From assembly GCA_944321445.1 (NCBI GenBank), contig CALULJ010000012.1, positions 1-47,978 of the forward strand: 47,978 nucleotides of DNA, given 5' to 3'. Made by a program: the position numbers and the translations under genes. The DNA comes from an uncultured Collinsella sp. (GTDB taxonomy: Bacteria > Actinomycetota > Coriobacteriia > Coriobacteriales > Coriobacteriaceae). Under the pieces are notes generated by a model that searched no databases, had not been told where the DNA came from, and worked only from the letters and a program-made list of their open reading frames with translations. Shown piece by piece: positions 9,452 through 44,988 of the stretch. How positions within the stretch are numbered: position 1 is the stretch's first letter; every line of letters starts with the position of its first letter.

Positions 9452-9810
9452 CGACGCACTTCTCCCCAGGGGAGAAGTGCGTCGCCGGGAGAAGCCCGTT
9501 TCACGGATGTATACAGCCAGCTTGTCTCCGCAGGATATCGTTCGAAAAATGTATAAAGATTAGGCGCCGGTGGTCGGAGCAGCTGTAACAACGGATGTTC
9601 GGGACGAAATTTCGGTGTCCTTCGTCCATATGGCGGATACCCGCTAGCAAAACCCCAGTTGTTTCCTGCGACGTTTCCAAGGGATGTCGCCCGTACGGGC
9701 GGAGGAGACCTAAATTTCGTCCCGAACTTCCTCCAAAGGGCTATACATCCGATTTTGGGCTCGAAGCCGCCCCGTGGCGACGCACTTCTCCCCAGGGGAG
9801 AAGTGCGTCG
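9452..9810. repeat. ~360-bp nested inverted-repeat element bounded by two identical 33-bp palindromes
   Basis: Two identical 33-base palindromes (9452-9484 and 9778-9810; CGACGCACTTCTCCCC, A, then its reverse complement) bracket inner complementary arms. These are CGGATGTATA at 9504-9513 with TATACATCCG at 9742-9751, and GTTCGGGACGAAATTT at 9597-9612 with its perfect complement at 9712-9727. No ORF of note lies inside. It occupies most of the 9349-9979 gap between the divergent pyridoxamine kinase and carA genes; the remainder holds the carA promoter region. Confidence 0.85.
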
Positions 9811-15836: not shown

Positions 15837-17291
15837 ATGGACAGTCGGGACAACGTGAACCCTGCCGTGCCTTCGGACGGTGCGCAGTCGACGCAGGCCC
15901 CGCTGCCCACCCCGCGCATGCGCATGGTGCCCGCAGGCTCGCATTTCTCCAAACCCGCTTCCGACTCGGGCGCCGAGGAGGAGTCGTCGTCGGTCGCCCG
16001 TCCTGCGGGCGCGCGCTTCGCGGCGAAAGGTTCGCAGCCACAAACCCCCGCTGCCGAGGTGCGTCGACGTGGAACGCGCTTTGCCCCGACGCCTCTCACG
16101 GGTACCGAGAGCTCCGCTCCTGCGCCGGAAGCGCGCGCCGATTCAGCGGCGGCGCCCGCGCTGGATACCGCGGCACCCCGTCCTGCGGGCGCCCGATTCC
16201 GCCCGGCCCCAACTTCCGCTTCAAACGAAAACCCCAGCCCAGAAGGCCGCCCCGCCGGCACCCGTTTCGCGCGTCCTGCGGCCGATGCCCCTGCTACGAC
16301 TTCCGCCCCAGCGGGCACCCGCTTTGCGTCCGTTCCCTCTCCCGACCAGGAACCCGCAGCTCCCGCCGCCGCTCCTGCCGAGCCTGCTGCGGCGACGGCG
16401 CAGATTCCCGTTTCGCGCGTAAAGGGCAACGACGTCCCGCAGATTCCCTTCGCAAGCACGACGAACGCCGCCGCAACCGGCAGCGCCCCTGCCTCCGCCG
16501 CAAACGACGGCGCCGCTCCCAACAACAAATCTCGCCGCAAGGGCAAGATCCTCTCCACGATTCTCATCGTCTTGGGCATCATCTTGCTGCTCGTGGCAGG
16601 TGGCCTGTTCATCGCGACCCAGCTTCGCTACCAGGAGGCGCAGTCGACCTACACCGAGCTCGAGCAGTACACAGTCACCTCGGACGAGGGAGAAGGCATT
16701 CCCGACGTCGATTTCGCTGCGCTGCAAGCGGTCAATCCGGACGTCATCGGTTGGATCTACATTCCCGGCACGCCCATCAACTACCCCGTTGTCCAAACCG
16801 ACGACAACACGACCTATCTGCACACGCTGGCCGACGGCACGCGCAACGCGTCGGGCGCGATCTTCATGGACATGGACGACACCGCGCCGGGCATGATCGA
16901 CCAGCAGACGACGCTCTACGGCCACCACACCTACGACGGCGCGATGTTCCAAACCATCGATTGGGCGCGCGACCAGGCGGAATTCGACAAGATCGGTAAG
17001 GTGTACTACATCACGCCCGACACCACCTACACGCTTACGCCGCTGTTCGTCTCGCGCATCGAGGACACCTATGTCGACGCGCGCACGCCGAGCTTCACCG
17101 AAGCGGGCACCTCGCTCACCAGTTACCTGCAGGATCTGTACACCATGGCGCAGGCGACCGCGCCCGACGCGGAGGAGCGCATCGCCTCCGCCGACCGCGT
17201 GCTCAGCCTCGTGACCTGCGCGGGCGAAATCATCCCCCGTACCACGCGCGCTGTCATGGTCTGCACCGTCGACGAGGCCGTCTCCCACTAG
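15837..17291 (+). CDS. Class B-like sortase with a repeat-bearing cytoplasmic N-terminus
   Basis: Membrane transpeptidase that cleaves sorting signals and links surface proteins to the wall or to each other. 484 residues from ATG 15837, which has GGGAG five bases upstream; ATG 15825 is an alternative. Residues 1-235 are Pro/Ala-rich, predicted disordered and cytoplasmic. They contain six copies of a PAG[A/T]RF-type heptamer at 31-37, 55-61, 76-82, 115-121, 138-144 and 157-163. A basic patch (KSRRKGK) and one membrane helix (238-262) follow. The extracellular domain has NPDVIGWIYIPGTPINYPVVQ, typical of class B, then catalytic YGHH (363-364), Cys461 in SLVTC and Arg471 (RTTR). Class B enzymes are usually ~240 residues, so the tail is the oddity. 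The giant adhesin with a VPQTG signal, 8 kb upstream, is a plausible substrate, not a proven one. Confidence 0.92.
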   Translation: MDSRDNVNPAVPSDGAQSTQAPLPTPRMRMVPAGSHFSKPASDSGAEEESSSVARPAGARFAAKGSQPQTPAAEVRRRGTRFAPTPLTGTESSAPAPEARADSAAAPALDTAAPRPAGARFRPAPTSASNENPSPEGRPAGTRFARPAADAPATTSAPAGTRFASVPSPDQEPAAPAAAPAEPAAATAQIPVSRVKGNDVPQIPFASTTNAAATGSAPASAANDGAAPNNKSRRKGKILSTILIVLGIILLLVAGGLFIATQLRYQEAQSTYTELEQYTVTSDEGEGIPDVDFAALQAVNPDVIGWIYIPGTPINYPVVQTDDNTTYLHTLADGTRNASGAIFMDMDDTAPGMIDQQTTLYGHHTYDGAMFQTIDWARDQAEFDKIGKVYYITPDTTYTLTPLFVSRIEDTYVDARTPSFTEAGTSLTSYLQDLYTMAQATAPDAEERIASADRVLSLVTCAGEIIPRTTRAVMVCTVDEAVSH

Positions 17292-17337: not shown

Positions 17338-17423
17338 AACCCCCTGCAAACTTTGGGGAAACCCACACCTGGAGGCGCAACCGGGCATCCGGGTGTGGGT
17401 TTCCCCAAAGTCTGCAGGGGGTT
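17338..17423. repeat. 32-bp inverted repeat between convergent sortase and regulator genes
   Basis: Arms 17338-17369 and 17392-17423 are complementary in 31 of 32 positions, with a 22-base loop. The arms contain CTTTGGGGAAACCCACACC and its complement. Lying between convergent genes, it may end both transcripts, although no T-run adjoins it. Confidence 0.85.
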
Positions 17424-23049: not shown

Positions 23050-23457
23050 ATGGCACAGAGCATGCCTTCCATTGATGCCTGGCTCGCCGAGGCCAAGGCC
23101 GACCCCAGCTTCCGCGCGTGCGGCATGTACCTCGTCCACAACGGGACCGTCCGCGAGACGCCCAAGGCCGAGGTCCGCGGCATCGAGACCGACGGCGTGC
23201 AGCCCGGCAGCAAGGTCGGCAGCATGGTGTTTTCCTACGATCGCGCGAAGGTCGACGCCGCCGTCGACGAGGCGCGCCGCCTTCCCGGCATCGGCTACGT
23301 GCGCGTATGGCTCAACGAGGGCGAACTTTCTGTGGGCGACGACATCATGCTCGTGCTTATCGGCGGCGACATCCGTCCGCGCGTCATCGATGCCCTGCAG
23401 CAGCTGGTTGGCACCATCAAAAACAAGTGCGTTTCCGAGGTCGAGCGCCCCGCGTAG
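23050..23457 (+). CDS. Small MoaE-like protein (molybdopterin synthase large-subunit fold)
   Basis: 135 residues; ATG 23050 with AAGGAG six bases upstream. Similarity to MoaE is seen in HNGTVRETPKAEVRG near residue 30, YVRVWLNEGELSVGDDIMLVLIGGDIRPRVIDALQQ and the closing IKNKCVSEVE. Residues that in MoaE form the acidic/basic active site are only partly matched: the usual lysine-rich PIWK-type motif is absent, although Lys residues occur in TIKNKC. No moaD, moaA, moaB or moaC is adjacent. It may be a diverged, possibly non-catalytic MoaE paralogue, or a stand-alone member of a MoaE-like family. Two large inverted repeats follow its stop codon. Confidence 0.6.
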   Translation: MAQSMPSIDAWLAEAKADPSFRACGMYLVHNGTVRETPKAEVRGIETDGVQPGSKVGSMVFSYDRAKVDAAVDEARRLPGIGYVRVWLNEGELSVGDDIMLVLIGGDIRPRVIDALQQLVGTIKNKCVSEVERPA

Positions 23458-23470
23458 CCCCAGCGCGCAC

Positions 23471-23654
23471 CGTTTCCCCAGGATTAACTTCTTACGAAGC
23501 GTTTGTGTATGGGTTTTCGGCCGCCCTCGAAGTAGACGCTCAAACAGGCATCCTTCCGACCTGCGCTTTTGTCGGCCAGACTCGTCGGGCTACTCGGGCA
23601 AAGCGCAAAAACCCATACACAACCGCTTCGCCAGACGTTAATCCTGGGGAAACG
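23471..23654. repeat. Long-stem repeat element R1 (90-nt loop with AGTAG/CTACT)
   Basis: Outer arms of 18 bases (23471-23488 and 23637-23654, CGTTTCCCCAGGATTAAC) are perfect. They run into a further 29-base stem (23489-23517 and 23608-23636) with four mismatches, containing GTGTATGGGTTTT. The 90-base loop (23518-23607) carries AGTAGAC 13 bases from its start and CTACT 13 bases from its end. Member of a four-copy family in this window (R1-R4). Confidence 0.85.
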
Positions 23655-23715
23655 CTGGCAGCCAGCGCCGATCGAGCGCCGCCATCTCCGTCCGAGTGGC
23701 AAAATCCAGGGACTT

Positions 23716-23890
23716 TGTGGCGCATAACGTCTTGCGAAGACCTCGTGTGCAGGTTTTTGAGGCCCGCCCGAGTAGACACGCTATAGTGCGCAGATAAAAT
23801 GCCTGGTCGGCGATGTATCGGCTTAGACGTCTACTTTTGAGGTGGCGAAAAACATGCACACGAGGTCTTCGCAAGACGTTATGCGCCACA
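23716..23890. repeat. Long-stem repeat element R2 (89-nt loop with AGTAG/CTACT)
   Basis: Arms 23716-23758 and 23848-23890 are complementary in 42 of 43 positions and contain CGAAGACCTCGTGTGCA. The 89-base loop (23759-23847) carries AGTAGAC 12 bases from its start and CTACT 12 bases from its end. R1 and R2 lie in tandem, 61 bases apart, and together fill the 476-base gap between the convergent MoaE-like and PF06541 genes. Confidence 0.88.
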
Positions 23891-23933
23891 AGCCTGCCGG
23901 GTTTCAGCCCCCAAACAGCCCAAATCTTGCCAT

Positions 23934-25241
23934 CTACGCCTTCGGCGCCAGCACCTCCGCGTTCGCATTGCCAGAATCAATACGACCGGAGTTATCGGGA
24001 TGGATCGTCATGCTCTGGAACCGATGCTCCATATACTGGTTGTCGAAGTTCTTCGCGTAAAACTCCTCGACCGGCGAGCTGGGCGCAATATCGCTCACCC
24101 GCTCGAACCAGCAGTCCAGCGCTTGCAGCGTCATAACCGCATTTACCAGCATCAACACAGCGCAGAGCGTCGTGAACGAGTAGCATGCCTTCCAGGGAAT
24201 CAGGTTGATGAGCCCAAGCAGACGCGGCAGCAGCACCTTGATCCATACGAGCCCCAGCACGCCCCAGATTCCGGCGAACATCGTCGACGTGCGCCCGTCG
24301 CACAGCGCAGCGATAGGGTCGGGAATCACGCCGAACAGCATCGACCCCGTATAATCCCAGGCCACGGCACCAAACGCGGTCTGCATGAACCAGCTCACGG
24401 CGTACTCGAACGCCCCGCCGATCACCGCACTCACCAAAAAGATAATCACGACGTTCTTCCTATAAAACCGGTTGAGCGCCACGGTCATAAGCACCGCGCC
24501 CACGCCATAGATGGGGGAGAAGGGCCCGAACAGCAGCCCCGCGCGATCCTGGTACACGCCTGGGTCGACGACGGTCATATGCCAAATGACCTCGAGCACG
24601 AGTCCCAGCACGCTGCACACCATGAACACCCAGAACAGATTGAAGAAATTGAGCTTGATATAGCCCTCGCCGGTCTCGTCGCGCCCGAGCATGCCCTCCT
24701 CGGCCGCCTCACGCTCCTGCATGCTGCGCAGGCGCGCCTGCAGGTCGCGCTCTTCGCGCAGCGTCGGGTCGATGGTGACCGAAATCACCAGCAAAATCAC
24801 GAGCTGGATGGCGGGCTGGATGAGCTGCCCGCCGATGCCGTTGAGCATCACGGCGATGACCATCTGCGCAATCGTGATGGCAATGAGGACTTCCGACCAT
24901 ATGGCTGCGTTGCGCCGGCGGTTTTTGAGCAGCGAATAGCCGAAGCGAATGAGCAGCACCGACGCCACGAGTGAAAGCAGCACGTTGATAACGGTGACGA
25001 CGATGGTGAGCGTCGGGTCGCTCGCGACGCTCAGGTGCTCGGGCGACCTCACCACGACCAGCGCGACCACGGCGATGAGCATCACGATGAGTGGCAGCAT
25101 GATGATGCCGTCGGCCATGCACAAGATGCCGTACACCTTCAGGTAGCGGGGGATCTTCTTCTGCTCATCGGTGCTGGGGCTCAGAGGGTCCAACTGATTG
25201 GACATGCCGCCGCGCACGGCGGCACGTTTCGATGCGCTCAC
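23934..25241 (-). CDS. Putative ABC-transporter permease-type membrane protein (PF06541 family)
   Basis: 435 residues. GTG 25241 is taken as start because AAGGAG lies seven bases upstream; an ATG at 25205 (MSNQLDPL) has no ribosome site. After a short polar N-terminus there are about four helices (YGILCMADGIIMLPLIVMLI and so on), then a charged loop (LREERDLQARLRSMQEREAAEEG). The C-terminal domain resembles the PF06541 'putative ABC transporter permease' family: FFNLFWVFMVCSVLGLVLEV, DRAGLLFGPFSPIYGVGAVL, IGGAFEYAVSWFMQ, AWDYTGSMLFGVIPDPIAALCDGRTSTMFAGIWG. No ATPase or binding protein is adjacent, so a transport role is a family label only. It is monocistronic. Confidence 0.7.
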   Translation of the reverse strand: MSASKRAAVRGGMSNQLDPLSPSTDEQKKIPRYLKVYGILCMADGIIMLPLIVMLIAVVALVVVRSPEHLSVASDPTLTIVVTVINVLLSLVASVLLIRFGYSLLKNRRRNAAIWSEVLIAITIAQMVIAVMLNGIGGQLIQPAIQLVILLVISVTIDPTLREERDLQARLRSMQEREAAEEGMLGRDETGEGYIKLNFFNLFWVFMVCSVLGLVLEVIWHMTVVDPGVYQDRAGLLFGPFSPIYGVGAVLMTVALNRFYRKNVVIIFLVSAVIGGAFEYAVSWFMQTAFGAVAWDYTGSMLFGVIPDPIAALCDGRTSTMFAGIWGVLGLVWIKVLLPRLLGLINLIPWKACYSFTTLCAVLMLVNAVMTLQALDCWFERVSDIAPSSPVEEFYAKNFDNQYMEHRFQSMTIHPDNSGRIDSGNANAEVLAPKA

Positions 25242-25654
25242 GGGTTTGCTCCTTATCATGCTGACGAACGGTGGTGTCAGGGTGCGGAATTCGGCCAAAG
25301 GATAACGGACGTACACCCCTTCTTCCCCCGCGGGCTAAACCTATTCCAAGAATGGGAAAATAACCCGATTAACGTGGGTTTTTCTTCATAAAACAGATTG
25401 TGAGCACTGTCCGTTTCGGCGCATTGATATGCTGCAAGCACCATGTTGCTCACGCGCATGTGCATGTTGGGCGCGCGGCCCTTGCAACCGGTCGCGCGCC
25501 CGTTTTGTGTGCAGGCCAGGCGGCCATAAGGCGGCAGCGCCCGCAGCCCCGCTCAAGCCCTTCGTAAAAACCTATCGACATCTTCGGAATCCGTGCCGTG
25601 CGCGTGCCTGCGTGCCATAATGTGCGGGTCGTTTACCGCATCCGAAAGGTAGCT
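25242..25654. other. Divergent gap between PF06541 gene and purF
   Basis: 413 bases with no supported gene. It contains a short AACCC...GGGTT stem followed by five T (around 25362-25386) and the GC-rich hairpin annotated at 25469-25506. Apart from these, nothing recognisable. Confidence 0.5.
25469..25506 (+). terminator. GC-rich hairpin with short T-run in the purF leader
   Basis: GGGCGCGCG (25469-25477) pairs with CGCGCGCCC (25493-25501), followed by G and four T. It lies ~150 bases before the purF start with no plus-strand gene upstream, so if functional it would act as an attenuator of purF rather than a gene-end terminator. Confidence 0.5.
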
Positions 25655-27268: not shown

Positions 27269-27294
27269 CGTGCCGCGCGCGGGAGACGCCGCTC

Positions 27295-27360
27295 TGGGAA
27301 AAAGGGGACAGGCACTTATTTCCCACCGGTGGGAAATAAGTGCCTGTCCCCTTTTTCCCA
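27295..27360. repeat. Perfect 66-bp palindrome, copy 1
   Basis: Left half 27295-27327 and right half 27328-27360 are perfect reverse complements with no spacer, centred on CCCACCGGTGGG. Each half includes GGGGACAGGCACTTATTTCC or its complement, and the right half ends in CCCCTTTTTCCCA. It lies between purF and purM. As RNA it would form a hairpin followed by T-rich sequence and could act as a terminator on either strand. A near-identical copy is at 34010-34075. Confidence 0.92.
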
Positions 27361-27467
27361 CGCCCCCGTCCCCGGTGATTTCACGCGATACAGCCGGCCC
27401 TGTCCTCATCGGTACGGTCGGCTGGTATCATCTTGAGCAGGTAGGACCTCCTTTCGAAAGGATGCGC

Positions 27468-33981: not shown

Positions 33982-34009
33982 TCGCTGACTGAGTGCTCCA
34001 CCTGCGGGT

Positions 34010-34075
34010 GGGAAAATGGGGACAGGCACTTATTTCCCACCGGTGGGAAATAAGTGCCTGTCCCCTTTTTCCCAA
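34010..34075. repeat. 66-bp palindrome, copy 2 (one mismatch)
   Basis: Halves 34010-34042 and 34043-34075 match the 27295-27360 palindrome, differing by one base in the left arm (AAAATGGGG for AAAAAGGGG). It lies upstream of upp and ends in CCCCTTTTTCCC on the plus strand. Confidence 0.92.
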
Positions 34076-34122
34076 CCAATGGGCGGTCCCCGTCTCCGCA
34101 AGGCTCGGCGCGGCAACGGCGC

Positions 34123-44559: not shown

Positions 44560-44586
44560 CTGGGCCTTGCTGCACACAACGATTTA

Positions 44587-44723
44587 CGAAGACCCCGTGT
44601 GCACGTTTTCAGCGTCCATCCAAGTAGACCTTCGAAGCGACAAACACGCTACCTGCGGTTCTGTAGAGCGGCTGGCGCCGCACTACTCACAGCGTGCCCA
44701 AAAACGTGCACACGAGGTCTTCG
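44587..44723. repeat. Long-stem repeat element R3 (90-nt loop with AGTAG/CTACT)
   Basis: Arms 44587-44609 and 44701-44723 are complementary in 22 of 23 positions and contain GTGTGCACGTTTT. The 90-base loop (44610-44699) has AGTAGAC 13 bases from its start and CTACT 12 bases from its end. Stem sequence resembles R2. Confidence 0.85.
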
Positions 44724-44770
44724 TTTTATATTGCGTTACCCCGGTCAGACGCCGCGCAATATAAATCGAA

Positions 44771-44897
44771 GCAGTTGTGTATGGCTTTTCAGCGGTATCC
44801 AAAGTAGACGCCAAACCTCCAATCGATTTACCAGGCATTTCTTTGATTCAGAGAGCCACGCTACTTCGGGAATCCGCTCAAACCCATACACAACTGC
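44771..44897. repeat. Long-stem repeat element R4 (90-nt loop with AGTAG/CTACT)
   Basis: Arms 44771-44789 and 44880-44897 pair in 17 of 18 positions (GCAGTTGTGTATGG). The 90-base loop (44790-44879) has AGTAGAC 13 bases from its start and CTACT 14 bases from its end. Stem sequence resembles R1. R3 and R4 lie in tandem in the 44478-44988 gap between convergent genes; the last 90 bases of that gap hold nothing recognised. Confidence 0.82.
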
Positions 44898-44988
44898 TCC
44901 GTAAAACGTTATGCATCTCGGCTGAGGATAAAGAATTCAGCTTTTTGGGCCATTCTACCCGAAACAAGTGGGCCCTATTTGCCCCCAT

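Follow-up and report, generated by a model that had tools for sequence, protein, structure and literature searches.

The R1 and R2 elements

The window analyzed here, a stretch of 47,978 nucleotides from an uncultured Collinsella sp., carries a gene for a MoaE-like protein (23050–23457, plus strand) and, convergent with it, a gene for a membrane protein (PF06541, ABC_trans_CmpB; 23934–25316, minus strand). The gap between the two genes is almost filled by a pair of long inverted repeats, R1 and R2. The stop codon of the MoaE-like gene ends 13 bp ahead of R1, and the 3′ end of the membrane-protein gene lies 42 bp past R2.

R1 is read on the plus strand. Its 5′ arm, referred to below as type A, spans 23471–23517 and pairs with an inverted 3′ arm at 23608–23654, giving a stem of 47 bp and a loop of 90 nucleotides. 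The loop holds the left half-site AGTAGAC (23531–23537), which is conserved in alignments A1 and A2, the centre motif GACCTGCGCTTTT (23558–23570; consensus CTACCTGCGGTTTT), which sets the direction of the element, and the right half-site CTACT (23590–23594). R2 is minus-oriented, judged by its centre motif. Its type B arm (23715–23758) and the second, inverted arm (23848–23891) form a stem of 44 bp around a loop of 89 nucleotides, in which AGTAGAC (23771–23777) and CTACT (23831–23835), both as read on the plus strand, enclose ACCAGGCATTTTAT on the minus strand (23794–23807), a degenerate copy of CTACCTGCGGTTTT. An initial annotation of this DNA had described two long-stem elements with loops of 90 and 89 bases, with AGTAGAC beginning 13 (R1) or 12 (R2) bases past the stem and CTACT ending 13 or 12 bases ahead of the opposite arm; the coordinates bear out each of these placements.

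Both elements fold very stably, at –96.9 kcal/mol for R1 (z –10.4) and –111 kcal/mol for R2 (z –11.6), and none of 200 dinucleotide shuffles folded equally well in either case. An intrinsic terminator was considered for R1 and R2 and rejected, given the loops of 90 and 89 nucleotides and the absence of a T-run past the 3′ arm.

A second tandem pair lies elsewhere in the window, composed of R3 (type B; 44585–44725, plus strand) and its partner R4 (type A; 44765–44903, plus strand). Around the gap between R3 and R4 (44710–44780), the facing flanks are mutually inverted, TTTATATTGCG ... CGCAATATAAA, 19 nucleotides apart; the pairs at loci L011 and L018 are likewise joined by shared linkers. The window also holds other inverted repeats. 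A palindromic repeat, GGTGGGAAATAAGTGCCTGTCCCCTTTTTCCCA, occurs at 27282–27373 and 34006–34077, as well as at loci L014, L018 and L020. A 33-bp palindrome, CGACGCACTTCTCCCC-A-GGGGAGAAGTGCGTCG, occurs twice about 290 bp apart (9452–9486 and 9776–9810), with a further 50-nucleotide inverted repeat between them (9593–9731). At 17338–17423, arms of 39 nucleotides that are 92% complementary face each other across an 8-nucleotide loop, between two convergent genes whose ends are at 17291 and 17460.

Arm alleles and copies in the source genome

The genome from which the window comes holds at least 22 copies by covariance model, R1 to R4 among them; 21 were collected by DNA search, from fetched loci and with a stem finder, and covariance model R1 added the copy at C1:18755. 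The arm-to-arm length is 159–161 nucleotides across the 21 aligned copies. The stems of R1 and R2 had been taken as nearly unrelated, a view that has to be corrected: both are alleles, of equal length, of one arm. Type A reads CGAAG-CNG-TTGTGTATGGGTTTT and type B reads CGAAG-ACC-TCGTGTGCAGGTTTT; both types recur in the genome, and outer modules mix between them.

A degenerate pattern for the inner arm found 21 forward and 21 reverse sites. As 41 of these 42 sites lie in or adjoin the arms of known elements (the exception is C31:5199), and nearly all of them form inverted pairs 102–104 bp apart, the arms almost never occur alone. This near-absence of solitary arms is unusual for decaying transposon copies.

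Conserved geometry and tandem pairing

The order of parts is arm, about 12 nucleotides, GAGTAGAC, about 20 nucleotides, CTACCTGCGGTTTT, about 20 nucleotides, GTCTACTC, about 12 nucleotides and inverted arm. Related genomes have arms with no sequence relationship to those in the window but an unchanged geometry, with loops mostly of 85–91 nucleotides. Single genomes carry several arm families side by side. The arms thus change wholesale, between genomes and also between families inside one genome, and remain paired. In genome G001 the arm motif has 64 sites (33 forward and 31 reverse; the reversed control gave 0), which line up in arrays that repeat every 41 bp and measure about 105 bp across the core, and some arms bear a second outer unit. 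Insertion into palindromes already in place was rejected for G001, where no arm motif was seen outside core-centred arrays.

The six tandem pairs of the source genome all combine a type A with a type B element, which chance would give there in a few per cent of cases. Tight tandem pairs (less than about 400 bp) in G041, G034, G023, G053, G110 and G043 also mix arm families, with a chance level that is higher because these genomes have more arm families; the same-family pairs that were seen stand at least 520 bp apart. Pairing of unlike arms may reflect function, or merely the instability of identical palindromes placed close together.

With covariance model R1, 65 of 100 relatives gave a match, among them all genomes of the same genus. 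Covariance model R2 drew on 32 arm-diverse copies and found matches in 130 of 259 genomes from the order Coriobacteriales: the whole genus, the family except for one genome (G046), many members of family f5 and one genus of family f2, with scattered weak matches elsewhere in the order. The element is present in all 45 members of the genus. In a phylum-wide sample of 396 genomes, the same model matched 18 genomes within the order and one weakly outside it (E 2e-4, where the E-values of both models are rough). The core pattern also matched Collinsella tanakaei, Collinsella sp. An2 and Enorma phocaeensis. The viral, phage and plasmid collections searched yielded no elements.

Stem covariation and the strand test

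A covariance model combined with a covariation analysis had been proposed as the check on R1 and R2, and it returned many copies with a constant loop length, AGTAG/CTACT kept and strong covariation in the stem. Among 32 diverse copies, all 25 stem pairs show double changes, and 91% of stem cells are paired, compared with 58% after column shuffles and 33–43% after sliding. The inner positions behave differently. AGTA/TACT is almost invariant in the same copies, and the neighbouring inner pairs are unpaired in about one third of them; AGTAG/CTACT is therefore best read as two inverted sequence boxes and not as a covarying helix. The five-base-pair helix of the initial annotation accordingly finds no covariation support. 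One clade has GAGCAC/GTGCTC as its boxes, a two-sided change compatible with either reading, and the inner spacers of some individual copies are able to pair.

Selection on one RNA strand should tolerate G.U mismatches more than A.C mismatches. With orientation set by the asymmetric centre, the arms of 116 copies contain 42 G.U and 43 A.C mismatches (95% interval for the G.U share, 0.38–0.60), a comparison blind to an RNA transcribed randomly from one strand or the other. When 52 tandem contexts were oriented by their flanking genes instead, the counts were 20 and 19. This equality argues against selection on one RNA strand and suggests that the arms are palindromic as DNA. Within a copy, the two arms agree slightly better with each other than with same-type arms from other copies; correction of the palindrome, or folding of a DNA strand, could produce this. 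No element matched Rfam, either in the window at gathering cut-offs or at six related loci at E up to 0.1. The earlier proposal of selection on an RNA fold is thus not supported: given a negative strand test and an inner helix without support, the covariation does not lead to the RNA conclusion.

Orthologous sites, gene context and mobility

At two orthologous sites in the genus the element is kept in place, in 15 and 16 sequences. Counting both sites, 108 of 139 positions are invariant in the boxes (arms, half-sites and centre), 52 of 103 in the spacers and 90 of 185 in the flanks (Fisher, p 2e-5 for boxes against spacer and p 1e-7 for boxes against flank, with box limits set by hand and positions that are not independent of the tree). 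Part of this conservation could stem from gene conversion between copies. At the second site three species have no element, and about 225 bp are replaced by 13–24 bp; in these empty-site comparisons neither a clean insertion boundary nor a target duplication is visible. At the first site other species hold an unrelated repeat instead. Another repeat, about 200 nucleotides long and hairpin-ended (GCAGGTAGAGCATAAGTCAGCGAAA...GTTACGCGGTTTGGTAAAACCGCGTAAC), takes the place of the palindromic element, or comes after it, at the same site in Collinsella genomes G016, G044, G038, G002, G032, G010 and G013 (loci L159–L165), and was also seen at L154, L155, L157 and L158. Its first bases, GCAGGTAGAG, are the centre motif CTACCTGC in reverse complement, and it has no Rfam match.

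With genes predicted by a hexamer-based caller, the copies lie between convergent genes in 47 cases, between tandem genes in 52 and between divergent genes in 9, and 7 overlap a called gene; the excess of convergent over divergent neighbours is clear (47 against 9, p 3e-7). The elements are thus multi-copy, extragenic and promoter-avoiding, and in these respects REP/BIME-like in the broad sense. Core orientation is weakly biased with respect to GC skew (74 against 48, p 0.02, for G048, G028, G034, G161 and G192 together), and the bias is not significant in any of the five genomes singly; a replication-strand polarity of the core was therefore rejected. As a separate observation, the core tends toward the G-rich strand in G048 (18 against 8), a tendency that is not clear in the other four.

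Among 132 neighbouring proteins, the 25 most frequent families include no mobile-gene family, and the neighbours showed neither a recurrent integrase nor a cassette array. The statement that no transposase is nearby holds for the copies examined. Mobility of a REP/REPIN-like kind may occur. The distribution of Y1 transposases does not follow that of the elements: Y1_Tnp (PF01797) has no match in several element-rich genomes, among them G001, G034, G041, G053, G056 and G057, and has two matches in the source genome.

One arm family of G034, CAAAAATGACGGAAATGCGCAAAT, has spacers that are alike, which indicates recent amplification. Its copies directly follow a GC hairpin with a T-run, which lies 5′ of the oriented core; the seven terminator-adjacent copies (L101, L107, L109, L110, L111, L114 and L118) were read by eye, and the script scored only some of them. 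They look as though inserted at terminators and are evidence that this family spread recently with a site preference. A general targeting of terminators was rejected, as the arrangement was seen in this one G034 arm family only. At one well-studied site, an element sits between two inward-pointing intrinsic terminators.

Discussion

Several known classes of repeat share features with these elements. A non-autonomous transposon (MITE), with the arms as terminal inverted repeats, a transposase acting in trans and copies that have no host function, would account for short, dispersed, extragenic copies with long inverted ends and no coding capacity, for their presence/absence polymorphism between species, and for the G034 family, in which the spacers are alike and the seven copies all have a GC hairpin with a T-run on one and the same side of the oriented core. 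It is nonetheless unlikely. The interior is conserved across genomes while the ends vary, which is the reverse of a transposon family; decayed fragments are almost lacking, the arm motif being essentially confined to elements in G001 and in the source genome and solitary or truncated arms being nearly absent; and the boxes are conserved at orthologous sites across many species. Neither a cognate transposase nor a target duplication was found, no mobile gene recurs among the 132 neighbours (a transposase at an unlinked position may exist), the phage, plasmid and viral collections hold no copy, and the empty sites show no clean insertion boundary. The least probable of the mechanisms we considered is that of a REPIN-type element, in which a RAYT (Y1/HUH) transposase would act on single-stranded hairpins and spread the copies, with AGTAG as the GTAG tag of a REP sequence. 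REPINs and GTAG-tagged REPs have variable spacers and conserved arms, as the present elements do, and these extragenic palindromes carry GTAG/CTAC at both half-sites; but Y1_Tnp is missing from the element-rich genomes listed above, GAGTAG lies about 12 nucleotides interior to the arm and not at the foot of a REP hairpin, and the elements are several times longer than REPs of 20–40 bp.

A structured RNA whose long stem varies and whose apical loop is conserved would fit the extreme stem covariation, the very stable folds and the position of most copies downstream of genes. The equality of G.U and A.C mismatches under both orientations, the unsupported inner helix, the lack of an Rfam match and the site enclosed by inward-pointing terminators argue against it, and we consider it distinctly improbable. 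Recognition by shape could also leave a stem free to drift, as at a folded single-stranded recombination site of the integron attC type. The resemblance extends to a long stem of constant shape with little sequence conservation, to the matching of arms within a copy and to the genome-specific arm families, as attC sites are species-specific. However, the elements are dispersed singly or in pairs, with no gene-cassette arrays and no recurrent integrase among their neighbours; the AAC/GTT core of attC is absent from the arms in most genomes, although it is present in the outer arms of the source genome; and inside each genome the arms are conserved as sequence. An attC-like site is in our judgment highly unlikely.

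The account to which we give about an even chance is that R1 and R2 are copies of a Coriobacteriales-wide family of REPIN/BIME-like extragenic palindromic DNA elements, putative protein-read sites that multiply and are kept by selection. Each element would be a symmetric array of boxes on double-stranded DNA, in which two arm boxes (about 17–47 bp, with an inner end that is usually ...TTTT) face each other around a core in which a directional centre (CTACCTGCGGTTTT) lies between two half-sites in inverted orientation (GAGTAGAC / GTCTACTC). Proteins would read these boxes as DNA sequence: the core would be bound by a factor conserved in the order, and the arms by lineage-specific factors, one for each arm family. 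The sites would multiply and be replaced within genomes in the manner of REPINs and BIMEs, and selection would retain established copies, which may serve chromosome topology or mark boundaries between genes. In favour of this account are copies that occur in many genomes and, apart from one weak match, were seen within the order; the covariation of every stem pair; mismatches that show no RNA-strand bias; the exact spacing; the invariance of the boxes at the two orthologous sites; the excess of convergent over divergent neighbours; the recent amplification in G034; and the species in which the element is missing from an orthologous site. Weighing against it are the closer agreement of arms within a copy, the possible share of gene conversion in the conservation at orthologous sites, and the inner spacers able to pair in some copies. 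Overall, the evidence favours a binding or mobile site in DNA over a folded RNA.

Like the REP, REPIN and BIME sequences of Enterobacteria and Pseudomonas, the elements are dispersed, extragenic, promoter-distant and palindromic, have lineage-specific sequences, and consist of paired inverted units with variable spacers and a GTAG/CTAC motif. They differ in their much longer arms (17–47 bp, for a total of about 120–190 nucleotides), in a conserved asymmetric core common to genomes with unrelated arms, in their exact spacing, and in the lack of a RAYT in several element-rich genomes. ERIC/IRU, YPAL, Correia (CREE) and BOX sequences are multi-copy, non-coding, intergenic imperfect palindromes of 100–200 bp, and BOX has repeatable internal units, as do the arms here. 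Each of those families keeps one sequence, whereas here the arms are swapped wholesale and the core and spacing stay constant. Extragenic palindromes are long known and common; what differs is a family that keeps its interior core and replaces its long arms with the spacing held to within a few bp. We did not find such a family in the open-access papers searched, and it is apparently undescribed.

A further reading, which we offer tentatively and hold to be possible but not probable, is that of a new class of chromosomal nucleoprotein site with modular specificity, in which an order-wide core is combined with exactly spaced, inverted arm boxes that are swapped as units between lineages, with several versions per genome and unlike versions in tight tandem pairs. 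If this modular reading is true, rapidly diversifying readers of the arms would exist alongside one conserved reader of the core.

For the discovery of RNAs, the elements provide a natural case of covariation that resembles an RNA yet fails the strand test. Stem covariation by itself does not prove an RNA, and discovery pipelines call for the corresponding caution. Collinsella and its relatives, which are common gut commensals, carry the family in abundance, and the elements offer a direct means of searching for unknown DNA-binding partners.
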